A DNA stretch of 64,000 nucleotides, from positions 40,073,338 through 40,137,337 of the forward strand of contig NC_091134.1 of NCBI RefSeq assembly GCF_041381155.1, in the 5' to 3' direction. This document shows positions 11,601 to 61,197 of this stretch, in pieces; the stretch's first letter is position 1, and every line of letters starts with the position of its first letter. This DNA comes from Argopecten irradians. Its lineage: Eukaryota; Mollusca; Bivalvia; Pectinida; Pectinidae. A program made the translations under genes and the position numbers. A model generated the notes under the pieces. It searched no databases and was not told the origin of the DNA. It was given only the letters and a program-made list of their open reading frames with translations.

Positions 11601-14600
11601 TGCATGAAATCTTTATAATATAATGCAACTGTAGAATGTTTAGCAATAACACTCAAACCTTATCAATAACAGAAGGCAAGATCATCGTAAAACGTAATGC
11701 TATCCGAGAATTGAAGTTTAATGAACTCAAATGGAGTGAAAGTTGAAGTTGACAAAATAATTTAAATGAACCAGATATTTGAGTTACCTGAATAAAATTT
11801 TCAGTTTACAAGGTTAAAATGTACAAAAAGGCAGAACTTTCATATATTAAAACTGAATTACCTATATCTGAACTTGTGAATTTGACTCTTTGTAAATTTA
11901 AAACAATTTAAAAATAGTTAAAATGTACATGAAGACTGACCTGTCCCACTTGGGTCCAGTCTCATGTAGCCGTCCATTAGGGATGAGAAACCGGTCAGTC
12001 CACCCATGGCCTGGTAGGGGACACCATCCTGACCAACAGGATGACCTCTGGCTACTCTCTCTTCTTTGGTTTCTACTATCATGTGATGGGCATTGTATGG
12101 TTCTCCACAACCACAGGTGTAGGAACTTTTAAAGCCTGTACATTTACAGCCACCTACAATAACACCACAGTACATTAATAGCCACATACAATTTTACAAA
12201 ACATATTTACAGCCACATACAGTAACACAACAACACTTTTATGCAAATATCATAACAAAACATATTTACAGCAATATAAAAAATACAACACATTTACAGC
12301 CATCTCCGCAATAATACAACACATTTACAGCCACAATATCACAAAACATTTACAGATACATAAAATTACACAACATGTTGACAGCAACATACAATAACAC
12401 AACACATTGACAGCAACATATAATAACACAACACATTGACAGCCACATACAATAACACAACACATTTACAGTCACATTCATTACCACAACACATTTACAG
12501 CCACATTCATTACAACTACACATTTACAGTCACATACATTACCACAACACATTAACAGTCACTTTCATTACCACAACATATTTACTGCCACATTCAAAAC
12601 CACAATACATTTACAGGCACATAAAATAACACAACACATTTACAGCACCATAAAATAACACAACACATTGACAGCCACGTACATTCCCACAACACATTTA
12701 CAGTCACATACATTACCACAACACATTAACAGCAACTTACATAACCACAACATATTTAGAGCCACATTCAAAACCACAACATATTTACTTTCACATTCAA
12801 ACAGCCACATACAACAACACAACACATTTACAGCACCATAAAATAACACAACACATTAACAGCCACCTTCAAAACCACAAAACATTTACAGTCACTTTCA
12901 AAACCACAGTTAACACATTTATAGCCCCTTACAATAACACAACACATTTACAGCCACCTTCAAGAACAACAAAACATTTACAGCCACATATTTATCACAA
13001 CACATTTAGAGTCATCTTCAAAACCACAAAACATTTAAAGTTTTACAGCCACATACATTACCATAACACATCTATATCCACATACAGTAACACAACAACA
13101 AGCATACCAGAATAACAAATATGGGAGCAGTTTTTCATAAAATTACTGTACAGAATAAGCCATATATCAATTTGCAAAAAACATCAATAAAGAAAAATAC
13201 ACAGTTTTCATATTTGCAGTCTACATTTAATTTTTTGTAAGTTCCTAGAAATGGGGGCGTGCTTATAGAGATGGGAACGGTTATTGGGTTGAAATCAAAT
13301 AAACCTATCAAGGTTTTAATATTTACAAACTATCCTCCCCTTCTTTTCCATCCCATAATTTTTGTATGAAGGTAGTTTGTAGCTTGCCTCACCTGTTTTA
13401 CACTTGTACCTGTTTTTATACCTGATTAAGTGTTTTGTAGCTTGCCTCACCTGTTTTACACTTGTACAGGTGTTTTGCAGCATACTTCACCCATTTTATA
13501 CATATGTGACTGTTTTGTAGCTTGTCACACCTGTTTTACACCTGTGCAAGTGTTTTGTAGCTTGTAATACCTGTTTTACACCTGTACAAGTGTTTTGTAG
13601 CTTGCCTCACCTGTTATTATACCTGATTAAGTGTTTTGTAGCTTGCCTCACCTGATTTACACTTGTACGGGTGTTTTGCAGCATCCTTCACCCATTTCAT
13701 ACATATGTGACTGTTTTGTAGCTTGTAACACCTGTTTTACACCTGTGCAAGTGTTTTAAAGCTTGTCTCACCTGTTTTACTCCTGTATGAGTGTTTTGTG
13801 GTTTGCCTCAAATGTTTTACACTTGTACGGGTGTTTTGCAGCATGCTTCACCCATTTTATACATATGTGACTGTTTTGTAGCTTGTAACACCTGTTTTAC
13901 ACCTGTGCAAATGTTTTAAAGCTTGTCTCACCTGTTTTACTCCTGTATGAGTGTTTTGTGGCTTGCCTCACCTGTTTTACACTTGTATGGATGTTTTGTA
14001 GCTTGTCACACCTGTTTTACACCTGTGCAAGTGTTTTGTAGCTTGCCTCATCTGTTTTACACTTGAATGGGTGTTTTGTAGCTTGTCTCACCTGTTTTAC
14101 TCCTGTATGAGTGTTTTGTAGCTTGCCTCAACTGTTTTACTCCTGTATGAGTGTTTTGTGGCATGCCTAATCTGTTTTACACTTGTATGGGTGTTTTGTA
14201 GCTTGTCTCACCTGTTTTACTCTTGAATGAGTGTTTTGTGGCATGCCTCACCTGTTCTACACTTGTACAGGTGTTTTGCAGCTTGTCACACCTGTTTTAC
14301 ACATGTACAAGTGTTTTGTAGCTTGCCTCACCTGTTTTACTCCTGTATAAGTGTTTTGTGGCATACCTCATCTGTTTTACACTTGTACAGGTGTTTTGTA
14401 GCTTGTCTCACCTGTTTTACACCTGATTAAGTGTTTTGTAGCTTGCCTCACCTGTTTTACACTTGTACGGGTGTTTTGCAGCATCCTTCACCCATTTTAT
14501 ACATATGTGACTGTTTTGTAGCTTGTAACACCTGTTTTACACCTGTGCAAGTGTTTTAAAGCTTGTCTCACCTGTTTTACTCCTGTATGAGTGTTTTCTG

Positions 14601-17071
14601 GCTTGCCTCAAATGTTTTACACTTGTACGGGTGTTTTTCAGCATGCTTCACCCATTTTATACATATGTGACTGTTTTGTAGCTTGTTATACCTGTTTTAC
14701 ACCTGTGCAAATGTTTTAAAACTTGTCTCATCTGTTTTACTCCTGTATGAGTGTTTTGTGGCTTGCCTCAGCTGTTTAACACTTGTATGGATGTTTTGTA
14801 GCTTGTCACACCTGTTTTACACCTGTGCAAGTGTTTTGTAGCTTGCCTCATCTGTTTTACACTTGAATGGGTGTTTTGTAGCTTGTCTCACCTGTTTTAC
14901 TCCTGTATGAGTGTTTTGTAGCTTGCCTCAACTGTTTTACTCCTGTATGAGTGTTTTGTGGCATGCCTAATCTGTTTTACACTTGTATGGGTGTTTTGTA
15001 GCTTGTCTCACCTGTTTTACTCTTGAATGAGTGTTTTGTGGCATGCCTCACCTGTTCTACACTTGTACAGGTGTTTTGCAGCTTGTCACACCTGTTTTAC
15101 ACATGTACAAGTGTTTTGTAGCTTGCCTCACCTGTTTTACTCCTGTATGAGTGTTTTGTGGCATACCTCATCTGTTTTACACTTGTACAGGTGTTTTGTA
15201 GCTTGCCTCACCTGTTTTACTCCTGTATGAGTGTTTTGTGGCATACCTCATCTGTTTTACACTTGTACAGGTGTTTTGTAGCTTGTCTCACCTGTTTTAC
15301 ACCTGTACAAGTGTTTTGTAGCTTGCCTCACCTGTTTTTACTCCTGTATGAGTGTTTTGTGACATGCTTCACCTGTTTTACACTTGTACAGGTGCTTTGT
15401 AGCTTGTCTCACCTGTTTTACACTTGTATGGGTGTTTTGTAGCATGATCATCTGAGAAGTGTTTACAGGTACACCTAAGAGCCATACTGCCATTGCGAGG
15501 CACATAATGGTAGGAAACACAGCCACATCCCTTCACCTTACAGGGCAACAGTATTGGCCGATCATCTGGTATCTTCTCAAAATCTGTCTTGTGACTAGAG
15601 TATCTAAAAACAAAAGTTGAAATTTTAAAATTTTATTATCTATCTATTATATATGAGTTCCATTTCTTAAAATTGCATTTAATTCACACATATGAATCAT
15701 CAAACAGTATATTTTCAAAACTGAATTTTCTTTGATTGACAATGAAAGGTATTTTATTAAAAATATGATATTTTGACTTACTTATGTGTACAAAAACAAC
15801 TTGTTTCTGGTCCCACCAGTTTACAGTCCATCCCACTGGGTGCAGCCCATGCTGTGAATATTCTGTTCTTTAACCGCTGTAAAGACAACAAATCAGAAAT
15901 TATAATAGCATAACAGAAAAATATAGATAGATTAATTCAATTGAAAAATATCATTCAGCTAAGGCATAAAATGAGGTGATTTTAGTAAAAATAAATCTTG
16001 TACTCAATATACAAATTTTACTGTTACTTTATCCTTACCATTGGCAGAACTTTTTTCTTGTAAGCTTCATACTGATCTGGTGTAAACATAACACCACCGT
16101 CATCATCTCCGACAATCCTGGAATGTGGTAAAGCAATTTTAAGCTAATATTTTATACAACTCTGTAGTAATAACATTGTAACAGGAACGAGACTGGCCCA
16201 GTTTGTTAATAACTACAAACTACACCCAGCTCCCTACCTGTGTGTTTCAACCCAGGTTCGTAGGGTTTTGCTTGATTTTTGCCGGTGAAGGAAAACGAGA
16301 CAAATACTTTTAACATGTAACAATATTTGATTTATAACGACATATTACATATTACATATTAATCAATGTATTACACAAGACGTAGGGCCCAACAAAGACG
16401 AGACTTACACATATATTTACAAAATATCCCCTGACAACCCCTCCATACCCCACCTACAACCCTACCATCCTAAACCTATAACCCACCTCTATTTAAAACC
16501 TGTTTGGTCCAGGAACTCAATCCTTCATTACACCGCAATGAAATGGACAGAACACCTCTATATATACCCGACTATAACAATACATGCACGATCAACCAAT
16601 ACGAAGACGGAACACAACACACGCACTCTTACAGCTAGCACAGGACCATGACACGATATATATTCCCATGAAACACAAACTATTTACAAGCCCTGCTACA
16701 ACATGTAAACAGTGTAGACTAGCTACATACATGTAAGTATTTTGTACATGTATACATTGTACAGTGTATATGTAGCTACAATGTACACAGTAGATGTATT
16801 CTACATTGTATATGTCTATGTTTATTTTATTTTATTTACAGGACATCAACCTTAATATGTGGTAAAACGTACAGTAATAGAAAAGGATATAATAAATCGG
16901 TACAGTGTTTGTACATGTAAAATATTAGGTACAGATTGTGTACTCTACTACCACAGTACATGTACAATTAACAGCAAATTTTACTCAACCGTACCGTTTA
17001 TATTCCAGGTAAGCATCAACTGAAGCTCCAGCATTTCCTCCGAATTTCAAATGATACTGTCTGTCTGCCAT
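8651..17071 (-). CDS. FAM221A: FAM221A orthologue, complete, eight coding exons
   Basis: Exons in coding order: 17071-16995, 16117-16039, 15876-15782, 15603-15413, 12153-11941, 9630-9517, 9230-9115, 8740-8651. All join in phase with GT-AG borders and give 324 aa plus TAA; human FAM221A is about 298 aa. Diagnostic stretches match the human protein as I remember it: 'SVDAYLEYKRIVGDDDGG' near residues 17-34, 'PSGMDCKLVGPET' in exon 3, a Cys-rich block (CFCTH, CTCKHFSDDH, CKCTGF, CGCGEPYNAHHM) across exons 3-5, 'AMGGLTGFSSLMDGYMRLD' in exon 5, and 'MDYFERRYQER' in exon 7. The paired Cys/His residues suggest metal binding, which is inference. The molecular role of the family is not established to my knowledge. 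Exon 5 has a second in-frame acceptor 18 bases downstream (TGTACAG|GC), which would remove GCKCTG. Intron 4 is almost entirely tandem arrays (see findings). Confidence 0.92.
12131..13095 (-). repeat. minisatellite built on the exon 5 acceptor of FAM221A
   Basis: About 30 units of roughly 30 bp, on the plus strand 'cacatttacagccacata' followed by 'caataacacaa', with many variants. The terminal unit is the true intron 4/exon 5 junction: on the minus strand 'GTTATTGTAG|GTGGCTG' is the splice acceptor, and 'GGCTGTAAATG' is coding (G-C-K-C). In most units the acceptor AG is changed (GTATGTGG). A few, such as those near 12861 and 12952, keep AAG|GTGGCTG. Confidence 0.9.
13378..15445 (-). repeat. 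40-bp minisatellite built on the exon 4 donor of FAM221A
   Basis: About 51 units with exact or near-exact 40-bp spacing. On the plus strand they contain 'gtgttttgtagcttgcctca' and then 'cctgttttacacttgtacag'. The terminal unit is the true exon 4/intron 4 border: the minus strand codes ATKHPYKCKTG and then the donor CAG|GTGAGAC at 15413/15412. Nearly every unit keeps CAG|GTGAG or CAG|GTGTG. A period of 800 bp (20 units) is superimposed. Confidence 0.93.
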
Positions 17072-19964: not shown

Positions 19965-20132
19965 TTAACTTAAAGTGTAATTAAAGCCGTCTACACCCGG
20001 CTTGATTGGCCTTCCCGTGTATTTGCCCTGACGCAGATGTATATTTACGTACGTTTGTCTGTTTCCTTCGTTGGTGGGTAGATCGGCGGTCCCTAATATG
20101 GCTAGATGACCTCTCATAGGATACACCCACCA

Positions 20133-20560
20133 GCGATTGTTTCCTTGAGGACCCCTTTTTGATGTGGTATGAGTGATTAGTCGGTGACGAGTTTGAGAAA
20201 TGATGGATGATGCTGAATCGGTGAGTGAACTGGAGAGAGGGGAGTAATGGAATGGAATGGACCAGAGAGAGAGAGAATGTCTGATGATGAGAGTTAAAAT
20301 AGATAGAGAAGGAATAGAAAAAGCAGTCGCACGATGTGTCATGCGTAGACTATTTAAAAAAAATATCGCTGTATATATCATCACTGTTGCTGGATATTGT
20401 ACAACATGTACTTGTGTTATGATCATTTATTTCATTACAAATGGTTATGCTAAGACACGATGTAAATTATCCGCCTAAAAATTGTACAAAATAACTGTAT
20501 TTCACAACTGCTGATATAGCTAACCGATATCAACTTTATCTTATTATATCTAAAAGGTTG
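20133..20560 (+). repeat. left copy of about 430-bp direct repeat flanking a LINE
   Basis: It begins 'gcgattgtttccttgaggac' and ends '...atctaaaaggttg', immediately against the poly-T that marks the LINE 3' end. It is nearly identical to 22129-22560, differing by a few single bases and small indels in A and GA runs. Its position and polarity fit a target-site duplication. Confidence 0.85.
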
Positions 20561-22128
20561 TTTTTTTTTTTTTTTTTTTTACAGTACAAATATTTTATTC
20601 CCCCCAGCTAAGTATGATGTGTATATACATTTGTGGCATTGTAACAAATGTATATACACATCGGTAATTTGGTGAGAGCTGCCAGGGTTGGGGTGCCCTG
20701 GGGTCAACTCCCCGAACAATAATGTCCTCGCACAGGAGGGCTCTCGCACAGCATGCATCAATTCATCAATTTAAACAATAAATATAATTTTAGAGCCATT
20801 ATAGTTAAAGGGAAAAAAGGAAAAAACTTTTTAAGAAAATTACTTGTGTATTGAGTATTCTGTTCACATTAAGATGTGGAATTTAATTGTTTTGGGTGGA
20901 GTGAATAAAACATTTGTATATACAAACAAAATCTAGCACAAAAAGACACACATACACACACACACATATATAAAGAATTATAGACAATACACAAACAAAA
21001 CAAAAAAGATTCAAATCATACATATTTAAGTACTACAACATAAAAACATCATACAAACATAGATTGGCATATTTCAAGAACTATTCAAAAATATATTTCC
21101 AATTGATCCATATTTGATCAAATTTCTCAATACATCCATTTTTAATTGACAGCTTTTTTTCAACATCATATTTTGTTAACAAAAACTCACTCAAACCTTG
21201 CATATTTATGTTTTGTTTTTTTCTTGATACAGAAAAAATATAAAACTTCATATAAAGAATAATAAAATTGAGAGGTATTGAAAAAAATTCAGTCTCACCA
21301 AACAGAATTGTTTCTAATTTAAATTCCACCACATTATTAGTTTTTTCATATATTTTTCTTTTCATACCTTGCCATATTTCAAAAGATTTTTGACAATACC
21401 AAAAAACATGTTCTATGGTTTCAACTTCTGTATTACAGATATTACATATATTATTTTCAGAAATATTTATAATTTTTAAGTAATTATTCAAAGGGAGTAT
21501 ACGGTGCTGTAATCTATACTGGAACCATTGTATTGATGTATCTTTGGTAATTAGAAAAAGTATTTTATATTTGTTTTTCCAGTGTATGTTTCTAAAGACA
21601 GCTTGTTGCTTCCATTTCTGCTCTGATGTTATCAAACCTTTATTTTTTTCAATTAAACAAAGATACATGTCTTTACATCCCTTAATACTTTTAAATAAAA
21701 TATGAATATGGCTAGGTATGAATGGTCTATCTAGTTTATTTAACATACTAAGGTTTAAATTTAGATTCTTACATATTTTCTTGATACAACTGCATATACT
21801 TCGATAAAGCAAAAAAATTTCTGATTCTATACCGAATCTTTGTTTGAAATCATTAAAAGAAAGAAAATTATTCTCTTGGTCTAATAAATCACAAACATTT
21901 CGAACACTCTTATCAAACCATTTTTTGTTAAAAAAGGATTTATTATCAATGCAAAAATAGGGTTGTACCATAAAGGAAGTCTTAAAAATTCTGAAGAAGT
22001 TTTCACCTGTACTGCTTCAGATACCCTAACCCATGCCTGGAAAACATGCATCCAAAATGTATTATTTGTTTTATGGTTTTTGATAAAATCAGTTCCTAAA
22101 TCAGATACATATGATATTGGGAAGTGTT
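20561..22128 (-). mobile_element. 5'-truncated LINE (L1/Tx1-like)
   Basis: The minus strand reads the C-terminal part of a non-LTR retrotransposon ORF2 followed by a 3' UTR and a poly(A) tail (T run at 20561-20580). Two frames carry the protein. One, entering at about 22128, has 'NTFWMHVFQAWVRV' and 'LPLWYNP'. The other, 21081-21971, has 'NKKWFDKSVRNVCDLL', 'SIQWFQYRLQHRILPLNNYL' and the Cys/His motif CNICNTEVETIEHVFWYC. They overlap near 21960, showing one frameshift. These words are typical of L1/Tx1-type elements of aquatic animals. The endonuclease and most of the RT are missing, so it is dead on arrival, but little decayed, so insertion was recent. Confidence 0.85.
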
Positions 22129-22560
22129 GCGATTGTTTCCTTGAGGACCCCTTTTTGATGTGGTATGAGTGATTAGTCGGTGACGAGTTTGAGAAATGAT
22201 GGATGATGCTGAATCGGTGAGTGAACTGGAGAGAGGGGAGTAATGGAATGGAATGGACCAGAGTGAGAGAGAGAGAATGTCTGATGATGAGAGTTAAAAT
22301 AGATAGAGAAGGAATAGAAAAAGCAGTCGCACGATGTGTCATGCGTAGACTATTTAAAAAAAAATATCGCTGTATAAATCATCACTGTTGCTGGATATTG
22401 TACAACATGTACTTGTGTTATGATCATTTATTTCATTACAAATGGTTATGCTAAGACACGATGTAAATTATCCGCCTAAAAATTGTACAAAATAACTGTA
22501 TTTCACAACTGCTGATATAGCTAACCGATATCAACTTTATCTTATTATATCTAAAAGTTG
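22129..22560 (+). repeat. right copy of about 430-bp direct repeat flanking a LINE
   Basis: Near-identical to 20133-20560. It starts exactly where the LINE sequence stops and continues into unique DNA at 22561. Removing 20561-22128 plus one copy restores a continuous sequence. Confidence 0.85.
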
Positions 22561-23100: not shown

Positions 23101-24250
23101 GTTTTTGTGGAAATCAGCATTGAAGTATGCGCTGGCAGAAATTGGTCAGCATCCAAGGCAGTCAGCGAAGCAGAGAGCCGATTGCGACACAAAGACATCG
23201 TGGGGACAATCGCTGTAGGGAGACAGGGCCTTGGAGCAGCTAAAACCACTCTCTGGAAGAAAGCAGATGTCGCAGAGAGGCAAACATTGGAACAGAAGGA
23301 GATAAGAAGTGGTGAAAAAGACAGACTAAAGCAGTGGAACTGGGCGTTCAGGGGGCCTGGACAAGGTGGGACACAGAACCACGTGTACTGTCATGGACAG
23401 AAATCTGGGAGTATCCGCAATTCCAACTGCAATTTCTCCTCCGTTCTGTGTATAATGTACTATCAACACCAGCAAATCTCCATAGATGGGACCTTGCAGA
23501 AACACCAGACTGCACTCTGTGTGGACAGAGAGGAACTCTGCAACATATCCTCACCTCCTGTAATGTGGTCTTAGCACAGGGAATATATACATGGCGCCAC
23601 AACGAAGTCCTAAGGGAGCTGGCAGATATTTTAGAGAAAGAACGCAAGAACACTAGGTCCAATCAACCAAGGCCCATTCATACACAGATTAGGTTTGTGA
23701 GGGAGGGGAAAAGAAGAACGTCAAGATCAGAGAAATCAACCTGAATCATCAGCCAGCCAGGGGACTGGAGATTGGCTGTAGATCTCAACCAAAGTTTCCG
23801 GATGTTGTTCCCACCAACCTCAGACCGGATATGGTTCTTTGGTCACCAGGATCATTGAGCTTACAGTCCCATGGGAGGAAAGGTGTAGTGAAGCACACGA
23901 AAGAAAGAGGACAAAGTATGAGGCACTGCTGCTGAAACGTAGGGAACGGGGCTGGCAGACATAAAGCTACCATGTCGAGGTTGATTGCAGAGGCTTCCCT
24001 GCACAGTCTGTGTGGAGAATACTATCTGCACTAGGGTGGGCGGGTAGGACTAGAAGGGCAGCAGTGCAGAGGATGGCCAAGACAGCAGAACGAGCTTCAT
24101 GCTGGGTGTGGATGAGGAAAGACACCAGTAGCTGGACACCCACCACCGACGCGCAGTGACTGATCACCACTGTGGACCCACCATCCTGAGAGTGTACCGA
24201 GTAAGGGGTCGAAACACTCGATAAGGGATGGCCTCGACTGTGTATAGGTA
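23101..24250 (+). mobile_element. broken retroelement relic, probably LINE-type
   Basis: This GC-richer island reads, in more than one frame, like the C-terminal part of a retroelement polyprotein that I have seen repeatedly in invertebrate genomes. One recognisable stretch is 'LAETPDCTLCGQRGTLQHIL' with a CxxC...H...C motif, followed by a 'TWRHNEVLRELADILEKER' stretch. The copy is a fossil with several breaks and no detectable terminal repeats. It is older than the LINE at 20561-22128. Confidence 0.7.
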
Positions 24251-25363: not shown

Positions 25364-28300
25364 TTACCATACACCAGGGAAGAATCGACCGTGGTAGTTG
25401 AATGGAATCGTGGTTGGTAGGTAAGCTTTGTTGATCAATGTCATTGTTTTTGGATCCACGACTCCAATATAAGACAACCCACGATCACCGTCCAGAATTA
25501 CCATCAGAAGCACGCCATCATCTTCCTCTTTTGCCACTTCCGGTGGCGCAGGCACAAAAAACGCTTCCGTCGGGTAATGGTGCGGGATCTGAAACATCTT
25601 TGTCTCAGTTTTCCCACAGACGTCCTTCTTTACGATTCCGGTGTGACTAAAACCTTTCCCATTCCAGTTGAATACGACGCCATATACATAACAGTAAGGT
25701 TTGGATCTGTAGTTTTCATTGAATGTTGGAATCTCCATATTCAGGGCATCAGGGAAATCGTAGTGCGTGATATTTTTTGTATTCATGTCTATGGTGTACC
25801 GTCTTAATTTTGAAACCAAGGACATGTTCATTCTTTCTGTCGCATTGAGTATGGATTGAAAGTCGAATTTTTTGAAAAAGTATGGATCTGGTTGAACAGG
25901 TATGTCGACTGTAAGTATGTTGTTTACTTCATACGCATTGGCGTGGTGTAGAGCGAAAACTGTTTCCGTCTCAAAGGTTTCCATTTTTCCCGTTGGAATG
26001 TTTACAACGAAAACTTTGGCTTTCTCGTCATTGTTCCATTCCACGCCAGCCGCGGCATATCCGTTTTTCGCCATGGTCATAAAATTTTGGTAATAAGGAT
26101 GAGCGATGAAAACAACATGGTTTTCTGTTACAGCAAAGGAATGCATGTAAGGAACGGAGTCCAAACGCCATTCAGCTATGACTTCGTGGTCCTCGGCGCC
26201 CTTCGTGCGGATCACTGTTATTTTATCTTTGATGACCCCAGGAATCATCCCAGTTCCTGCAAGGTAGTCGATGTACGCCCCTGGATTACCGTATTCCGGG
26301 ATTGGATGAGCAGACGACAACAAACTTACGACGTCATCTGTTTTTGGATGGTTCCCTGTAGGAATCTTGGGGTCGATTAATCTAACCGTATCAAGGGTTG
26401 GAAGGTCGATTTGATAAGACTTCCATAAGTCTGTCACGGCAACAAAGGTGTTGGAATAGTTGTAAAAGTTCACATTCATGTTATCCATGGCATTGAACAT
26501 GGCCGCCACTTTCTGTTCGTCATCATAAGGAGGCACGGTGACTCCAAAATTCAGGTATGGAGCGATGTCGTTTATCTCCACTGATGTTTTGTAGAAGGAA
26601 GACTGGATAAACTTTGTGGTAAATAGACACGAGCCATCACCGGGGAATTTCCAGCTCATTAGCTTGGCGTAACCGTCCAGCGCCTGTGTGAATTTCCTGT
26701 TCCCCATCTCAAACTGTCCGGGACCGTTCCGTACCTAAAAGCAGAATTATTTCATTATCTATACATTTAAGTTAAAAAAAAAAAAAAAAAAAAAAGGATC
26801 CCCAACAACTTCAATGTATCAACATTAATGCATATGCTATGAAGAATAATCCGATAAAAATTTTCCGCTTTTTATTCTTCAAGAATGAAAGTAATTATGG
26901 CGTCAAGTATTTATCTTCTGTCATGGAATGAACTTTGCGGTGTAATGCATAGCTAATATTTCTGCTTATCAATGATATATATTGCTGCATCAGTCTTTGC
27001 TATATCTATCAAACATTAGCAAGTGTATTGACTCTTGAGAGACATAACGAGAATCAGTGTTGGTACATAAATTGAGAGTAACTACAGAGTAAATTTCAAT
27101 GCTTTACAGTATTTGATTTGTAGTGACGTAAAACGAATGTGCATAGTTGATAATGAACAAAGGAGGGAGGGAGAGAGCACAGCGTTCATGCAGAGCAAGC
27201 GTCGCTTTCGCTACCAGCTATATTGATCTACGGGAAACATAAACCGTTTAATTTCCACGGCTCAACTTTAAATGGTTGATTTACAAGTTACAAAGTAAGT
27301 TAAATAAAATTAAGGCATTATTTGCATTTTGATGAACAAATCATAATCACAAAAATTAAAGAAAAAAAAAGTTAAAAAATCATATCACAAACGTAATATA
27401 CCATGTCTACACTGTCATACAAATGGCCTTGGATAATTTAGTTTATATATCTTTCTGTTTGATGACGATAAAATTGCTGCATAAACATTATTAGTAATAA
27501 TGTATGTTTTGATAGCCTAAACCATATACTGGTTATCATTTCGTCATAACAGATAGTAGTTTATCAAAATTATTAAATCGTGGACACTAGAGACTGAAAC
27601 ACGTGAGAGTAATCTGAAATGAGATCACGTGTAGTTTTTGACATTTGTTATCTTAAACAAGTAGGCGTTTTAACCCCGTATTTGGATATCTGATAATTAG
27701 AGGATGTACCAGACTTTGGTTTTGAAGGAACACATATTGTGTCATTGTGTCAGTATTAAGTACATTAATTATCTTTCTAACGTGTAGAACATTTAGTAAT
27801 GAAATTAAGAACATTAGAAATAGATACTTTATGAATTAATGAATGTGTACTTCGATATAAAATACAAGGAAGTAATAGATGAAATTTTATTGAGAAAACA
27901 AAATGTAACAAAAACGACATAAATATTGCATGTTTTGTATTTTCCTATAGCTGACAATAACTAAAGTATGCCAAAATCTTACACAGCAAAGCCGGAAATC
28001 CTCTTTGTTGTTGTTTCATGTCGTAAGTAAATGTATCGATCGAAATGTAAAACTTAGGATTTTGTTAGGTTTTTTTTAAATGTCTGAATACCACATCCTA
28101 CCGAAATTGAACTATTAACATGGATATAAATACTCATATAAATCTGATATATGTCGTGGAATATCAATATCAATGTCTAGTTAAATGACAGAAATAGCTA
28201 CAAAAAATCATGCACCCTCACACTTCGCATGTCGTTACACATGGATTTCCAAATATATCTATTAATCATAATAAAATATTTCATTATTTACCCAGTTTTA

Positions 28301-31048
28301 GTTTAGATTTTATTTTTGCTTAATGGTATTATTCTAAATATAGCACCATACCAGTTCTGCTTGTACATGTAATATACTTTTTAAAACAAGAGAAGAATAT
28401 TTTAAAATTTCAAACAACTTTTTTTTTTCGTGGCGACTTAATATCGCATTTTTACACATAACGACTATTCCAAGACGATGAATTTCGTGATCGAGACCTC
28501 TTTTGTCTCCACTTTATATGTAATTGAAATTTCTTATCGCTTGTGAAATACGCGAAAGTTAATCGTAGACGAAAGAAGGAAGGATAACAGTAGATAAATA
28601 CCCGTTTTATATGTTTGGTTTGTTTCAGCTCTTTGCCATGGCTTCACATAAAAGTATATATGGCGCGTTAAAAATATTGCGTTTTTTTTTTAAATTATTC
28701 TAATTCAAGTCATATTATGTTTTTTAATATTTATATAACAGCACATATATAGTATATATATATAGAAAAAAATCACTTATATACAGAAATATCAAATGAT
28801 TTGAAGATAATATATACTCTAATAGAAAATACAAAACTTAATCAGGCTTGCAATTATGACAGGAAAATACCCGGGAATTTCCTATCCAACTGTAAATATA
28901 TAGTAATCGGCTGCAATATATACTCCTCAAATACTGAAAATACTAAAGAAAATAAAAGTTAATCAGGCTTGCAATTATGACAGGAAAATACCCGGGAATT
29001 TCCTATCAAATGTTGCAACTGATATAGTATATATACTCTAATAGAAAATACAAAAGTTAATCAGGCGTGCAATTATGACAGGAAAATACCCGGGAATTTC
29101 CTATCAAATGTTGCAACTGATATAGTATATATACTCTAATAGAAAATACAAAAGTTAATCAGGCGTGCAATTATGACAGGAAAATACCCGGGAATTTCCT
29201 ATCAAAATGTTGCAAATACGTATATAGCAAGTCACACTTTTACAAGGATATTTAAGACTAACGATATTAAAAAAAACTTTTTAAATGCATTGCAATTTAT
29301 CAATTGAGGTTCGTTGTGTGAAAATGGAAAGTGAGTTACGGGTGAAAAGTTAATATATAATAATACAAATTTTATTAATTTAATTTATACATTGATATAT
29401 AAATATTTGTATATAATATATATACAAATATTTCTTCTGGCGACACCTACAATGCACAGAAAACATTCAGTAAGTACACGCCCCCGTTTCAGGGGCGTCT
29501 GAGAGTATTCTCTACTTATCGATGCTGTCGCTTTTTTGTAGTTTATGCAAACTAATGTCTGTTAAATGTCGTCATAATGAATTATATAATTCTAAATAAA
29601 ACACTTTTAGTTTGAAAATTAAAATCTGTTGATGATGATGAACATTGTTGAACATCGAATGACTCGACCATGTTCTAAATTTTCCCCTTGCTGTCAGATT
29701 CACTTTGTTATCAGGGATCTCCATTCACATATGATACTTCCAGATAAGCAAATTTACGAGTCCTATTTTTATACATTTTGAAATATGCATTTTTAAAACT
29801 GTGTAGATTCTATAAGGTGCAATGATAGAACGTTCGTTTAGGCTCTTAAAACATAACGGAACTTTAAATGGTTATATCTTTAATGTCAGCTATCAAATAT
29901 GCTTTTCATTCATATTGATATAATTTAACAAATTGCGCTCAATGAAATATGGATAAAACATATAATATTTTCATAACCTAAGGTAAAAATGAATCAACAT
30001 AAATTGAATGAACTTAATATAAATATTTTATTTTCATAGTTTGTAATCTGAGGTGAATATTTTATTTCAATATCCTGTGTTTTAAGACTCTTTCATACGT
30101 GGATATGAAGGATAGGGATATTCTACCCGAGGGTCATAAAATGTTGTAAAACCCAAGGCTTGAGGGTTTTACAACATTTTGTGACCCTCGGGTAGAATAT
30201 CCCTATCCTTCATATCCACGTATGAAAGAGTAGTTTTCTCTCATACCTCGAAGTTTTATTACTTATTTTTACTTCAGTACATGTACTTTGATTTTCCGAC
30301 ATTTTGAAATCAATTCGGAAAAAACGCGACGACAAGTCAATTCTCCATACATGAAAATTGCAGGATATTTTTCAACGCAAATCCCATGGTTAGTATCTTT
30401 AAAGTAAATCCCGTATTGTTTCTGAAAAAAATGTTAAAATTCTACCTTAAAAATAGTGATTTTGTTGACGCTGTGACGTTACGAGGCTTTATTGCATGGG
30501 TAGCCATGCAATACTGCCTCAGGCAACATGAGTCTATCATGTAGATAGAATACAGTGAATCTATTACAATCAGAATCACTCAACAAGATTATTTCATAGA
30601 AAATTAATTTATACCTTTTTGTACTCTACTTTTCTTTCATTACAACGTAGGTGTTTTAGTAGAAAAAATAGACGCGAGTACTGAAACCCTCGTTTTGAAG
30701 ATGGTCAGGATATATATTTTGTCAATTAAACACCAACTAACAAGGGACGAGGTGTTATTCACACATATTCTTTATCGATCAAATTATATTTTAAGTAGAT
30801 GTAAAAGGTGAAAAAAATCATATGAGCATATTATATAATCAGTACATTAATACATATGACTTATTTACCAGAGTTCCATATATCCAGTTGGGTAGCGGTT
30901 TTTCAAATTTGATTGGATAATCTTCATAGGTGTCCTTATTTGTTGTCCACCAATGTTGGAAACCAGGAGCATCATCATCATCACCAGGAGCACTGCTAGC
31001 TGTCTGTACTGTCGCCAGCATCAGCAGCAGAAAGGATAGAGACATCAT
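25364..31048 (-). CDS. secreted carotenoid oxygenase (BCO/RPE65 family), copy A
   Basis: Two coding exons: 31048-30869 and 26734-25364, joined in phase 0 (CTG|GTAAAT ... TTTTAG|GTACGG) to give 516 aa ending TAA. The family cleaves or isomerises carotenoids with Fe(II) held by four histidines. Here they fit H203 (SSAHP), H258 (YMHSF), H324 (LHHANAYE) and H508 (NYHGRF). Other marks are RNGPGQF at 62-68, 'ENYRSKPYCYVYG' and 'FVPAPPEVAKEEDDGV'. Residues 1-20 (MMSLSFLLLMLATVQTASSA) form a clear signal peptide, followed by an acidic PGDDDDAPG. NxS/T sequons (NYS, NAT, NMS, NIT) suit secretion, unlike the cytosolic or mitochondrial vertebrate BCO1/BCO2. The whole catalytic part lies in one 1371-bp exon. 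The substrate is unknown. Confidence 0.9.
28807..29215 (+). repeat. tandem repeat, about 96-bp unit, four copies
   Basis: Four near-identical units in the intron of carotenoid oxygenase A, each with 'actctaatagaaaatac', 'gttaatcagg.gtgcaatta' and 'gaaaatacccgggaatttcc'. The first two are slightly diverged; the last two are almost identical. Confidence 0.9.
30087..30231. mobile_element. near-perfect hairpin element
   Basis: The inverted repeat arms are about 66 bp, from 'actctttcatacgtggat' to 'gttgtaaaaccc', with about one mismatch and a loop of about 13 bases (aaggcttga). It sits in the carotenoid oxygenase A intron. It is likely a very young fold-back MITE. Confidence 0.9.
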
Positions 31049-33414: not shown

Positions 33415-36400
33415 TTACCACAAACCAGGGAAAAATCGACCGTGGTAGTTGAATGGAATCGTGGTTGGAAGGTAAGCTTTGTTTATCAGTGTCATTGATT
33501 TTGGATCCACGACTCCAATATAAGACAACCCACGATCACCGTCCAGAATTACCATCAGAAGCACGCCATCGTCTTCTTCTTTTGCCACTTCCGGTGGCGC
33601 AGGCACAAACCACGCTTCCGTCGGGTAATGGTGCGGGATCTGAAACATCTTTGTCTCAGTTTTCCCACAGACGTCCTTCTTTACGATTCCTGTGTGACTA
33701 AAACCTTTTCCATTCCAGTTGAATACGACGCCATATACATAACAGTAAGGTTTGGATCTGTAGTTTTCATTGAATGTTGGAAGCTCCATATTCCGGGCAT
33801 CTGGAAAATCATAGTGCATGATATTTTTAGCATTCATGTCTATTGTGTAACGTCTTAATTTAGAAATCAGTGTCATGTTCATCCTTTCTGTAGCGTTGAG
33901 TACAGAGGGAAAGTTTAATTTTTTGAAAAAGTATGGATCTGGTTGAACAGGTATGTCGACTGTAAGTATGTTGTTTACTTCATACGCATTGGCATGGTGT
34001 AGAGCGAAAACTGTTTCAGTCTCAAAGGTTTCAATTTTACCAGTAGGAATATTGACAACGTAAACCTTTGCCTTCTCCTCTTCTCTCCATTCCATTCCTG
34101 CTGCAGCGTATCCGTTTTTCGCCATGGTCATAAAATTTTGGTAATAAGGATGAGCGATGAAAACAACGTGGTTTTCTGTTACAGCAAAAGTATGCATGTA
34201 AGGGGCGGAGTCCAAACGCCATTCAGCTATGACTTCGTGGTCCTCGGCGCCCTTCGTACGAATCACTGTTATTTTATCCTGAATAACACCTGGAACCATT
34301 CCAGCACCTCCAAGGTAATCGATATATGCTCCCGTATTGCCATATTCCTGAATTGGATGAGCAGATGACATCAGACTTATGACGTCATCTGTTTTTGAAT
34401 GGTTCCCTGTAGGAATCTTAGGATTGATTAACCTAATCGTATCAAGGGTTGGAAGGTCGATTTGATAAGACTTCCATAAGTCTGTTACGGCAACAAAAGT
34501 GTTGGAATAGTTGTAAAAGTTCACATTCATGTTGTCCATGGCATTGAACATGGCCGCCACTTTCTGTTCGTCATCATAAGGAGGCACGGTGACTCCAAAA
34601 TTCAGGTATGGAGCGATGTCGTTTGTCTCCACTGATGTTTTGTAGAAGGAAGACTGGATAAACTTTGTGGTAAATAGACACGAGCCATCACCGGGAAACT
34701 TCCAGCTCATTAGCTTGGCGTAACCGTCCAGCGCCTGTGTGAAGTTTCTGTTCCCCATCTCAAACTGTCCGGGACCATTTTTGACCTGAGAAAAAATGTT
34801 TCTTGTCAGATATCATTTTTAAGTGAAAATCATCCTACATAAAATTATATGATGTAGCCATTTAACCCTGACGATGAAATTGTACCGAACTCTAATCCAT
34901 GGCAAATGATGGGTAAAATTTGATTTTCATATTTGAAGGTTAAATTACAAGATGTTTGACCTGCTATTACGAGATTATGAGTATACTCTACTTGAGTATA
35001 TATTATATTATAGTTATTTTTCTAATTACAGATTTATGTAATCATCCCATTAAATATGAAATGACTTTGTCGTTTGTAATCTTGTGTTTTACAACGACTG
35101 CAATATTTCTTCGAAAAGTTCCTCTGGTAATTTGAAATTTCAAGAAAGTACATTTTATACCTTGAATTTTAAAACTATCTTATATAATTGTCTTAAATAT
35201 AGAATATATTTTTAGTTTACTATATACACATTTAAGAGATATTCTGATTATATCCCACAAATAATAAATAAACCCGTCGGTTTAGACAAAACATCTTCAA
35301 TAATTAAAATACTTTGTTGGGTTGCCATTGGCCTTTCCTGGTTTTTCATGAAATTAATTGAATTTTACCCTGTAAAAAGTCGACGACCAAAAGGGTATAG
35401 CTAGATTGTGTTATCAATTATGGTTTCGAATAAGAGGGAATTTTAATATTCATTGATTTATTTTACTGACAAAAAATGGTTATCAAGATATTTTGAATTT
35501 AAATACTTTTTTACTAGTTGGACACAATTTTAGGTGTTTAAGAGCTCCAAATGCAAATAATAGTTCATCAGAATGTAAGCGACAGAATCACATACATAAC
35601 GTGATACAAACAGAAACACAATTCTGTATCAGACAGATATAGAACAATGAAATACGTGTCATCTGATAACATACCTTTAATCATGTCAATAGATATATAC
35701 ACATCAATAGCCGTATCCTTAACATTGATTATACCAAGGTTATTAGGTCAGATTTGAATATTAACCGTACCGCAGGTCATTTTCGCGGCACATAAGGGAC
35801 CTGTTACAGCTGTCATTGAAGTTTGCCCACAAACCAATTAAACAAAACCTATGTGCATGTTGTAGTACTATGACAGAGAACCTGTAAGATACCTTTAAAA
35901 TATTCAAAAGACCACAGGGGCCTGTTCTAGGTAGGATTTAATGCTGCCCTCCCAAGGTGTACATCAGGGTTCCTTTTTAAAAAAAGATAAAACTGTTTGA
36001 AGTTGTATTTTCAGAATCTTCAAGCATATTATACAATTTTGCATATTATACAATTTTGCTCGGAATTTGTAATTAAATAGAAAACCAATATTATTTATTT
36101 TCAAACATATCCATGATTACATCACTGAAGTTCATCTAATGTTCAAAACAATTTGTATTGATAGATACAGTGAAATAGCAGCATATGGGTGCTTCAATCA
36201 GAAAATGTAAGGGAATTATGTGGGGGATTTTCCGAATTTTTATCCCAAGTGCTCCCCCACTTCCGGTTAATGCACATCTTCACTTTTTTGAATTATGAAA
36301 ACTACACTATAGTACGTAACATAGTGAAAGTTTCGAAAATATCGCAAGCCGGGAAGTTTGTCATTTCAAGGTCAAAAATTTTTTTTGGTCAATTTCTACA

Positions 36401-55562: not shown

Positions 55563-58500
55563 ATGGATATTGTTACAGTGGCCGATGACGAGGGGAATAC
55601 CTTGGAATACAAGAAATACAAGGAACATGTTTTTCCGAAACTTGTTAGAGGAAATGTGCAAGACCAGCTGGCTCAAGTAGCACAACTCCAATGCAGAGCA
55701 GACGACATTTTACTATGCACATATCCAAAGACAGGTACAGTCGGTAAACATGGGTATGTCCAAGTAGATAACATACCGTGTAGATGGCCATTTTTGTGGG
55801 AAGAAATGTTCGCGGGACATATACGGTTGCGAAAATATTATCGGATAAGTGTTGACAAACTGGTGAAATATATGTACTGTGCCTTTAAAGGCAGATCGGG
55901 AAGTTTAAAAAGCGCTAAACACTAATTTATTTTTACCCGTAAAAGTAATCGGTGATACGTTTTAACAAGATAAGTTATCTTGACTGTAATAACATTATCT
56001 AACGCAATGTGATCCTTCTGATAATATTCCAGAGCAGCGAGTTGACTGAAGGCGTGACCAGTATCTCTTTGTAGAGATAACCATACATATATCAGAAATG
56101 AAATGAACTATTGAACTTCAACGTGATCATCGTTATCAAAACAGTCGTCTGCCCCAATATTTTTTTTTTTTTTTTTTTTAATAAACAATCATTTACGTTA
56201 TCATTATAGATCGTTTTAAATTGTAAATTCTTATTTGTCTGTCATGTTCTGTCAATAATTTTAGCAAAACTAGAGGAGGGGGATTGGAGGATGTTGTTTT
56301 GTTGGTATGGGTAAAATCAACATGTGGCCAGTACTGTGGTGCAACTGCCGACAAAATGCTGATTTTTTTTCAGACAATATTGTTTTATTTTAAATGTTCA
56401 AATAAAGGTAATTTTAACATCGATCGCCAGGGGTTACTATCACTTCTGTTACACGGCCGACATTGATAGTAAATCCTGGAATCTTCTATTTCACTTCTTT
56501 CTAACTGACTGTTGAGCATTGCGATGTGTTGTTAAGTGTCCTTGGCGACATGCATCAGTGAGGTAGCACTATAACATTGACAAGAGTCCCATTTTTACTG
56601 AGAGACACAACGCGAATATACCACTGTCTCGTTAGGTCCAATCAACCAACCAACATCCTATCTTCCTGTTACTATCTCGTTAGGTCCAATCAACCAACCA
56701 ACATCCTATCTTCCTGTTACTATCTCGTTAGGTCCAATCAACCAACCAACATCCTATCTTCCTGTTACTATCTCGTTAGGTCCAATCAACCAACCAACAT
56801 CCTATCTTCCTGTTATACCACTGTCTCGTTAGGTCTAATCAACCAACCAACATCCTATCTTCCTGTTTATACCACTGTCTCGTTAGGTCCAATCAACCAA
56901 CAAACATCCTATCTTCCTGTTTTACCACTGTCTCGTTAGGTCCAATCAACCAACCAACATCCTATCTTCCTGTTATACCACTGTCTCGTTAGGTCTAATC
57001 AACCAACCAACATCCTATCTTCCTGTTATACCACTGTCTCGTTAGGTCCAATCAACCAACCAACATCCTATCTTCCTGTTATACCACTGTCTCGTTAGGT
57101 CTAATCAACCAACCAACATCCTATCTTCCTGTTATACCACTGTCTCGTTAGGTCTAATCAACCAACCAACATCCTATCTTCCTCTTATACCACTGTCTCG
57201 TTAGGTCTAATCAACCAACCAACATCGTTAGGTCCAATCAACCAACCAACATCCTATCTTCCTGTTATACCACTGTCTCGTTAGGTCTAATCAACCAACC
57301 AACATCCTATCTTCCTGTTATACCACTGTCTCGTTAGGTCTAATCAACCAACCAACATCCTATCTTCCTGTTATACCACTGTCTCGTTAGGTCTAATCAA
57401 CCAACCAACATCGTTAGGTCCAATCAACCAACCAACATCCTATCTTCCTGTTTATACCACTGTCTCGTTAGGTCTAATCAACCAACCAACATCCTATCTT
57501 CCTGTTATACCACTGTCTCGTTAGGTCCAATCAACCAACCAACATCCTATCTTCCTGTTATACCACTGTCTCGTTAGGTCTAATCAACCAACCAACATCC
57601 TATCTTCCTGTTATACCACTGTCTCGTTAGGTCTAATCAACCAACCAACATCCTATCTTCCTGTTATACCACTGTCTCGTTAGGTCCAATCAACCAACCA
57701 ACATCCTATCTTCCTGTTACTATCTCGTTAGGTCCAATCAACCAACCAACATCCTATCTTCCTGTTACTATCTCGTTAGGTCCAATCAACCAACCAACAT
57801 CCTATCTTCCTGTTACTATCTCGTTAGGTCCAATCAACCAACCAACATCCTATCTTCCTGTTTACCACTGTCTCGTTAGGTCTAATCAACCAACCAACAT
57901 CCTATCTTCCTGTTATACCACTGTCTCGTTAGGTCCAATTAACCAACCAACATCCTATCTTCCTGTTTTACCACTGTCTCGTTAGGTCCAATCAACCAAC
58001 CCACATCCTATCTTCCTGTTATACCACTGTCTCGTTAGGTCTAATCAACCAACCAACATCCTATCTTCCTGTTATACCACTGTCTCGTTAGGTCCAATCA
58101 ACCAACCAACATCCTATCTTCCTGTTATACCACTGTCTCGTTAGGTCTAATCAACCAACCAACATCCTATCTTCCTGTTATACCACTGTCTCGTTAGGTC
58201 TAATCAACCAACCAACATCGTTAGGTCCAATCAACCAACCAACATCCTATCTTCCTGTTATACCACTGTCTCGTTAGGTCTAATCAACCAACCAACATCC
58301 TATCTTCCTGTTATACCACTGTCTCGTTAGGTCTAATCAACCAACCAACATCCTATCTTCCTGTTACTATCTCGTTAGGTCCAATCAACCAACCAACATC
58401 CTATCTTCCTGTTACTATCTCGTTAGGTCCAATCAACCAACCAACATCCTATCTTCCTGTTACTATCTCGTTAGGTCCAATCAACCAACCAACATCCTAT

Positions 58501-61197
58501 CTTCCTGTTTACCACTGTCTCGTTAGGTCTAATCAACCAACCAACATCCTATCTTCCTGTTATACCACTGTCTCGTTAGGTCCAATCAACCAACCAACAT
58601 CCTATCTTCCTGTTACTATCTCGTTAGGTCCAATCAACCAACCAACATCCTATCTTCCTGTTACTATCTCGTTAGGTCCAATCAACCAACCAACATCCTA
58701 TCTTCCTGTTACTATCTCTTTAGGTCCAATCAACCAACCAACATCCTATCTTCCTGTTACTACATAATTGATTCTGGTAATTACACTACGTATCGTAAAT
58801 CCTTTCCAAAGTTACAACGACATAGTACTAGTTTTTGTTATGCCGAAATATTTACATCATCGTGTAAGAAAGCATGAAATGATAAACATTTATCTATCAA
58901 AATGCCAACAATGTCTTTCAATCCAATGGCGGTGTATCTGTAAGGTTTTGAATTCGGAATGGAGACGCTTCAATTCCTAATAATGTATACATTTTAATAG
59001 TTCTAATGTTGAAGTCATTTCTTCAACAATTACAATATAATAGTCTTTTTTAAAATAATTTCGTATTGTCCAATATATGGCTGTGTTCGGCCACATTTAA
59101 TCTTTTCTCTGCAGGGTTACACTGGACTTATAACATCGTCCACATGTTAGTATCTGGATCAGCTACCTACCTGGGCAGTCCAAGATACCTAGAATTTGAT
59201 GACATCGCCAACATCGACAGTATGCCACCACGGAGGGTGTTCGCCACGCATTTCGAGGTGTGCCACTTACCAGAAGCTATGAAGTGTGGAACAGGAAAGA
59301 TAATTAATGTCCTCCGTAACCCCAAAGATGTCGCTGTCTCCTACTTCTGTTTCTTGACGTCACTGAACAGTCCTGTATACTCTGGCAATTTCAACGGATT
59401 TCTAAAGTTCTTCCTCAATGAAGATTGTGAGTTCAAAATAATGTCAGCAATTAAATGATTTCGGGAAGATTTTTCTGCTGCAATGGTGATTTCTATGGAC
59501 TTCATTTCTATATAGCAAACATTAAGAGTTAAAAAGCATTAAAATCAAGAGTTTTGAATGACTATCAATTATTGGAAGACGTGCTTCGTGATTAATATAA
59601 TTATCATCAAAAGGTTATCTTTAATTATTATCTAGACAGAAAAATTCATTTACAGTGCTTGCCTCTAATTATCAAAAGCAAAAATATATTAAAAGGACTC
59701 TAGGATGGAACAGCCGATAATTGCGGTCTAAATGTTATCTTAATTTCAAGGTATTTAATTATATTATTCGTGTTTTGGTACAATTCTATCCTATGATATT
59801 TCTTTTTCATTTTCTTATAATGCCTATTTGTTTGTATCTCGATAGTTCTCTTTGGAAATTGGTTCGGTGCGCTAAAACAATGGCTGGATATAAGGAAGAC
59901 ATACCCAGATATGAAGACACTTACTCTACACTATGAGGATATGAAAAGAGCAAGTAACTACAAACCCACACACACCCCTATTTTACACTAGACACAGGCA
60001 AAGTATGTAGCCAAGGACACTCGTGCATTACCTTCAGTTTGATATTACTATATGGTAGATACAAACGCCCTGCAATAAATTACAGCACTTGGTCATTGTT
60101 TTTAAATATCAGTGAAAACATACAGAAGCACAAAGAAAACTATTGGACTAATGAACTGCCAGTCATTAAATTAAGGTAAAACACACACAATATCCCTGAA
60201 GAAATCTTAAACACGAAGTTACTAATTATAAAAGATCTTGCAACAGGCACATACTTTGCCAATAAAATAAACTGATTGCTCCAAAAACAAATTATTTAAA
60301 CATTGGTGATTACCAAGAGTGACTTAATTCCTTACCATAAACAGTTCGACAAACTTAAACTGTGTAGTCCTTATTTGGATGCCAGCTTGCAATTTAATTT
60401 ATCGCTCATAAATGTCTTATAATATATTAATTTACCATATTATTGTCTTTCAGAACAAGCTGCAAAATATCTACACATTAGCAAATTTCCTCGAAATTCC
60501 TACAGGTGAAGACTTTCTTCGACAAGTGGAACTCAATGTTGAATTTTCGAAAATGAAAATCGACCACGAACATGGACCTGCGGGATCCGACACATTTGTG
60601 AACATTTCCAATCGTGGAGTACTCCCAATCTATCGTAAAGGTTTGTACATATTCAACACGATATCCATCGACTGATAATGGCAAATGATAAAATTTTACA
60701 TCAAGATCGTAAAATATGTTGATCCACTCTTATTGCTAAAGAAATAAAGTGCTGATAATGGGAAGCAGTTTATATTTTGTAATAATAAAAACAATCATAT
60801 ATGAGATATGCAAATCATAATTGATTTAATCGGCGGACAATGTTGTTTATATTCTCAATTGAATAGTACATTTGACAAAACGTTCCATATATATACATGT
60901 ATATGATATTATAAGTTGACAAATGACGTTTAACAATATTGTATTATGAAAACACACGTGCTTATTGTACTGTTCCATTATAATGTTTACGTTTTTACTG
61001 AGACTTGTGTGTTTTAATGGACTGATTTATTCTATAATTGATCTATTAATTGATACACATGTGTTTGAATTGGTTTTCCATCACCAGGAGATATTGGAGA
61101 TTGGAAGAATTGGTTCACTCAAGCCCAAAGTGAGGAATTTGATCGCGTGTATCAGCAAAGAATGGCTGGCTATGACATAGATTTTATATACGAATAG
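55563..61197 (+). CDS. cytosolic-type sulfotransferase C (SULT family)
   Basis: Five coding exons: 55563-55734, 59115-59426, 59846-59949, 60454-60640 and 61088-61197 (172, 312, 104, 187, 110 bp), giving 294 aa plus TAG. Exons 2-5 match the lengths and phases of copies A and B exactly; exon 1 is three codons shorter. Motifs are CTYPKTGLHWT (PAPS loop, with Leu where A and B have Thr after the Gly), RRVFATHFEV (catalytic His), NVLRNPKDVAVSYF, LFGNWFGALKQWLD, YEDMKR and YRKGDIGDWKNWFTQAQ. Exon 3 ends AAAAGA|GCAAGT, so its donor is GC rather than GT. Using the nearby GT would add four bases and break the frame. The protein is clearly more distant from A and B than they are from each other. Intron 1 carries a 2.1-kb minisatellite. 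It is transcribed away from copy B. Confidence 0.92.
56521..56615 (+). repeat. partial copy of a SINE-tailed dispersed repeat
   Basis: It aligns with 62693-62787: 'gtgttgtt.agtgtc', 'cagtga.gtagcacta', 'agacacaacgcgaatatacc'. It runs straight into the minisatellite at 56616. Confidence 0.75.
56616..58764 (+). repeat. minisatellite in sulfotransferase C intron 1, 48/53-bp units
   Basis: More than 40 units. The core is 'tctcgttaggtccaatcaac' + 'caaccaacatcctatcttcc' + 'tgt', joined either by 'tataccactg' (53 bp) or 'tacta' (48 bp). The two types differ at one core base (tct/tcc aatc) and occur in blocks. A shortened junction 'accaacatcgttaggtcc' occurs at least three times, showing block duplication. 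Confidence 0.97.

Follow-up and report, generated by a model that had tools for sequence, protein, structure and literature searches.

The stretch of DNA analysed here (the window: 64,000 nucleotides of Argopecten irradians, contig NC_091134.1, positions 40,073,338 to 40,137,337 of the forward strand) carries on its minus strand a gene of the FAM221 family with an intron bordered by two minisatellites. We take the gene to be FAM221A; this name is the label of an earlier note on the same DNA, and the Pfam family covers both A and B. Exons 3–5, when joined, form one open frame, the translation of which matches Pfam PF14753 (FAM221A/B family) with E 1.5e-78, and the translation of exon 4 by itself (64 amino acids) gives a FAM221 match with E 3.3e-23. 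This confirms the FAM221 identity proposed in the earlier note at the level of the domain, A and B not being separated by it. The exon borders given below rest on the sequence together with the family match. Exon 3 (15782–15876, 95 nt) lies inside the Pfam match and is flanked by the acceptor TTTACAG and the donor AA|GTAAGT. Exon 4 (15413–15603, 191 nt) ends with ...HPYKCKT and base 1 of a Gly codon, which is completed by exon 5. The GT of the presumed true donor of exon 4 (CAG|GTGAGA) is located at 15411–15412. Exon 5 starts at 12153 and is considered here to 12000; it is preceded by the acceptor AG at 12154–12155 (TTATTGTAG|GTGGC), which provides the in-frame join KCKTG-GCKCTG.

Intron 4 (12154–15412, 3259 nt) is A+T-rich and, as read from its sequence, is mostly made up of two repeat arrays, one with about 52 copies of the putative start signal of the intron and the other with about 32 copies of its putative end signal. 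In the direction of transcription the intron is formed by copies of the donor junction (~2035 nt), by a spacer of ~280 nt of other sequence (13097–13377) and by copies of the acceptor junction (~940 nt). Each array lies at one end of this intron, and its exon-side unit contains coding sequence. AATAAA was not found on the sense strand of the 3259-nt intron. ATTAAA occurs there twice (13320 and 13231), both times within the spacer.

The donor-junction array (13378–15442) has 51 full ~40-bp units and one truncated unit, in agreement with the ~50 copies described previously. Tandem Repeats Finder (TRF) reports it as a 40-bp repeat of 50.8 copies at 13408–15443 (score 2050). An in-register walk on the minus strand from 15442 gives the 51 full units (48 measure 40 bp and two 41 bp, while the final one has only 38 bp), followed by the truncated unit from 13402 to 13378, in which the donor is intact (G+1 at 13392). 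Unit 1 contains the final 30 bases of exon 4 together with the donor CAG|GTGAGA (G+1 at 15412), i.e. the exon 4/intron 4 border is indeed the first unit of the array. Of the 51 full units, 38 have an intact GT and 13 lack its G, whereas the T is invariant; a consensus donor in nearly all units, as claimed in the earlier note, was therefore an overstatement. CAG stands immediately 5' of the GT in most GT-intact units; 21 of the 51 full units, the true donor counted, have CAGGTGAG with A or G as the next base. The units copy the donor junction of their host exon and unit 1 is the real border, which makes the array by its sequence a splice-donor minisatellite of the IFI6 type. The word "functional", applied earlier to all of the copies, is appropriate for unit 1 only, as the donor presumably in use.

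The use of a later donor would retain 40, 81, 121 nt of the intron and so on; the multiples of 40 expected in the earlier note are nearly right and are shifted by the units of 41 and 38 bp. Read-through from exon 4 gives ETSYKAPVQV and then a TAA 32 nt past the true donor, within the first added unit, as had been predicted. Every later donor should therefore lead to the same truncated protein, and decay of such an mRNA may be supposed.

The donor array contains also a higher-order tandem duplication (13601–15201), in which units 7–26 recur as units 27–46 with 14 differences over the 20 unit pairs (800 positions). The differences are spread unevenly, a single one falling in the first half of the unit pairs and 13 in the second half, as after a later exchange or at an assembly join. 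The 800-bp block may have been duplicated recently, or the assembly may contain two haplotypes in a row; both are compatible with the sequence.

The acceptor-junction array (12140–13096), which the earlier note had missed, comprises 32 units of about 29 bp (lengths 27–43), which copy the intron 4/exon 5 junction and reach 14 nt into exon 5. TRF detects 29-bp repeats at 12140–12788 and 12801–13037 as well as a 58-bp version at 12140–13035, and walking the array to 13096 yields the 32 units, several of them with insertions or deletions. The unit on the minus strand is GTTGTGTTATTGTATGTGGCTGTAAATGT, and the exon-5-proximal copy is GTGGTGTTATTGTAG|GTGGCTGTAAATGT, that is, the acceptor with the first 14 nt of exon 5. 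Among the 31 non-true copies AG is present at the acceptor column in units 6, 25, 28 and 30 and one base off this column in units 15, 21, 26 and 27; the remaining 23 have neither. The AGs located 5' of the used acceptor are 83, 151 and 363 nt away and then further, the last 82 nt being without another AG. A branch-point-like TATTAAT (12174–12180, A at 12175) revealed by a motif scan is positioned 21 nt from the acceptor AG, and the second nearest to the acceptor of the ten yTnAy matches in the array is 123 nt away. Acceptor choice thus looks readable from the sequence, given the distance of the nearest upstream AG and the position of this putative branch point. A depletion of AG in the exon-5-proximal copies is not claimed here. 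By eye AG was counted in 0 of 13 proximal vs 7 of 18 distal copies (p 0.02), with a cut picked after looking (p 0.03 at two nearby cuts and 0.08–0.09 at two others), and the alignment added unit 6, which changes the count to 1/13 vs 7/18.

The arrangement is probably best explained by a tolerated growth of minisatellites from duplications of the junctions, with position choosing the first donor. According to this reading intron 4 would have undergone tandem duplication of both its junctions, each of which then grew into a minisatellite, with 40-bp units at the donor and 29-bp units at the acceptor. A tandem duplication spanning a splice junction would leave an intact junction at the exon and would be carried along as intron, after which repeated slippage or unequal exchange may enlarge the array. 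Such growth could be tolerated because the exon-adjacent copy stays intact, so that extra copies can pass as intron. The origin from the junctions is suggested by the coding sequence in the exon-side unit of each array. The acceptor would be set by the AG-free last 82 nt and by the adjacent upstream branch-point match, and unit 1 would win as the donor that closes a short 191-nt exon, is flanked by exon sequence and is the first to be transcribed and bound by U1. The remaining donor units drift, with no constraint to be seen on the donor.

The variation among the units agrees with such drift. In units 2–51 the mean variability of the nine donor columns is 0.159 vs 0.130 for the remaining columns. 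On a tree built from the 51 units, which comprise 36 distinct sequences, the donor columns undergo 2.33 parsimony changes per column vs 1.45 for the others; 95% of random nine-column sets have no more changes than the nine donor columns, and the nine-column donor block has rank 26 of 40 circular blocks (1 being the most conserved). Between the two 800-bp copies differences are observed at 5/171 donor sites vs 9/589 other sites (Fisher p 0.33; 19 of the 20 unit pairs, the omitted pair 7/27 being without differences). Selection keeping the donors is rejected, since the donor columns are no more conserved than the rest of the unit, and for the same reason the donor copies look like unconstrained leftovers.

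Several observations weigh against the choice of unit 1 by position and against growth by chance. Pairing energies were calculated with a U1 end entered by hand, the alignment of units and the branch-point call being made by simple rules. By these energies, 20 of the 50 later full units match or exceed the true donor, and strong copies stand already 81 and 121 nt past it. A scan of every GT gives 21 later sites in the donor array at least as good as the true donor, the extra one belonging to the truncated unit (G+1 13392); it gives none in exon 4, in the spacer or in the acceptor array. Counting the true donor, there are 22 donors with equal or better predicted U1 pairing, and 13 full units are without GT; the dozens of donors described before are at most potentially usable ones. 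Unit 1 has rank 25, 27 and 26 of 51 in predicted accessibility under three settings, and 15, 19 and 17 of the 37 other GT-bearing units, respectively, are more open. Neither strength nor predicted accessibility nor conservation singles unit 1 out, and no measurement explains its choice; the question of how the first donor is picked, raised in the earlier note, is a real one. On the acceptor side, the pyrimidine tract of exon 5 is weak (a fraction of 0.53; 0.80 and 0.67 for the acceptors of exons 4 and 3, respectively), and TTAAT is present also further upstream within the acceptor array. Finally, arrays on both junctions of one intron are an odd coincidence for chance growth.

Growth of the arrays with position as the chooser of unit 1 is nevertheless preferred here, because pairing strength, accessibility, pairing between the arrays (see below) and a gradient of strength all fail to distinguish this unit. 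The latter is absent from units 2–51, where U1 pairing energy shows no trend with position (Spearman -0.02, p 0.86).

It is conceivable, although unlikely, that the array acts as a productivity switch, in which unit 1 gives the FAM221A protein and any later unit gives an early-stop mRNA that is degraded, the output being tuned by the length of the array or by the level of U1. The TAA is retained with every later donor, and the 21 later sites equal to or better than the true donor in U1 pairing energy would offer the alternatives. In human IFI6 two repeat units further downstream serve as donors, which results in three mRNA species (PMC4526556). However, kept donors would be expected neither to have lost GT in 13 of 51 full units nor to show columns conserved no better than the others.

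Somewhat less likely still is the reverse, namely selection that disarms the decoy donors; this would supplement the growth of tolerated arrays rather than replace it. Among the 40 columns, G+1 and G+5 have changed most (6 and 5 parsimony changes, respectively), which is a hint of disarming, and the nine donor columns jointly change more than most random nine-column sets. On the other hand, T+2 never changes and G-1 changes once, the sum over the four key columns, which were picked after looking, is borderline (permutation 0.055), and strong decoys are found at the distances of 81 and 121 nt mentioned above.

Two proposals that call for more than one splicing step appear improbable. The intron might be self-correcting, since the block retained by a later donor k starts with the GTGAG of donor 1 and ends with CAG beside exon 5, and a second splice could remove it and restore the normal mRNA. 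If so, the donor array could reach any length at almost no cost, and the locus would provide a natural example of repair through repeat splicing. Against this, few pyrimidines precede the CAGs of the array, and the exon junction complex reportedly keeps mRNA from being spliced again (PMC8184009). Stepwise splicing, in which each CAG|GTGAG unit would serve as acceptor and donor in one and blocks of units would be removed successively from donor 1, is judged slightly more improbable than self-correction. The CAG directly before the GT in most GT-intact units reproduces the layout of ratchet points, in which an acceptor and a donor are juxtaposed (PMC8605326), but the 15 nt before the 46 CAGGT sites are pyrimidine-poor (mean 0.36, highest 0.53). 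This shortage is not decisive, because the exon 5 acceptor itself reaches only 0.53.

The least probable explanation is RNA structure, with decoy donors hidden and unit 1 open or with the two arrays pairing and looping out the intron: folding is indeed more stable than in shuffles (z -5.2 for the first 800 nt of the donor array and z -2.2 for the acceptor array, 20 shuffles each), but occlusion of donors by hairpins is rejected by the ranks of unit 1 in accessibility, which is not unusually open, and pairing between the arrays is rejected as the sampled pieces pair worse than 12 shuffled pairs (mean -43.5 vs -47.5 kcal/mol).

Other repeats and open frames are present elsewhere in the window. 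An array of ~2.1 kb (56617–58762) is built of 53- and 48-bp units with 133- and 186-bp higher-order blocks and sits a few hundred bases before a Pfam Sulfotransfer_1 match (59054–59455); its 53-bp repeat has one 17-bp match outside the array (23654–23670). A 98-bp tandem repeat of 2.8 copies is found in the region 28810–29215, with a further 77-bp match just outside the repeat (28810–28886). For the 35- and 93-bp arrays no matching copies were detected elsewhere in the window. The minus-strand open frames 25364–26734 and 33415–34812 read very alike, and the first of them matches Pfam RPE65; they are probably a recent tandem gene duplicate. The peptide NSLRMTHRATAFSIPSLSILTLIIRHSLSL is common to the minus-strand open frames 19965–20426 and 21881–22378, the second of which overlaps a frame with a zf-RVT match at 21084–22016, and these two are probably pieces of a dispersed element. 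One more frame of the window has a Pfam 7tm_1 match.

Most studies of competition between identical donors have used engineered genes that carry two or three copies, and in the classic experiments with duplicated donors the intron-side copy is often favoured. Such a preference would predict the wrong choice here, which makes the locus useful. Intron 4 can be regarded as a natural test of splice-site choice among look-alikes, with its 22 equal-or-better donors spaced in register every 40 nt or so and with matching acceptor copies, 23 of 31 of which have no AG within one base of the acceptor position. It could reveal how far from an exon a donor still works, and which of the order of synthesis, the exon length and the local sequence determines the choice. 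In addition, it points to a way in which introns may expand from their own junctions.

As regards known systems, an intron with such a pair of arrays did not turn up in the open-access literature searched, which is a weak negative; a minisatellite on a splice acceptor at an intron-exon boundary was likewise not found there under those words. Human IFI6 is the closest case with respect to the donor side, as its minisatellite units carry and act as splice donors (PMC4526556; the reference is also in PMC2572611). It is a one-sided precedent, whereas at the locus described here the use of later donors leads to a stop, and the acceptor of the same intron carries an array of its own. In human segmental duplications internal tandem repeats at exon-intron boundaries alter splicing (PMC2812944). 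These are similarly minisatellites on such boundaries, but they have on average 30-bp units in four copies and belong to recent human paralogs, and no case involving both junctions was met in what was available of that report. The ratchet points of recursive splicing (PMC8605326) share with the donor array an acceptor-like CAG followed directly by a donor, and differ from it in that the CAGs of the array are preceded by few pyrimidines. In the RdRp gene of potato an intron was gained by tandem duplication across an intron-exon boundary (PMC4974935). There, as in the acceptor array, the duplication runs over the acceptor junction and carries along the branch site and the acceptor. In contrast to intron 4, where many copies lie inside an intron that has no sign of being new, the potato intron was created by a single duplication.

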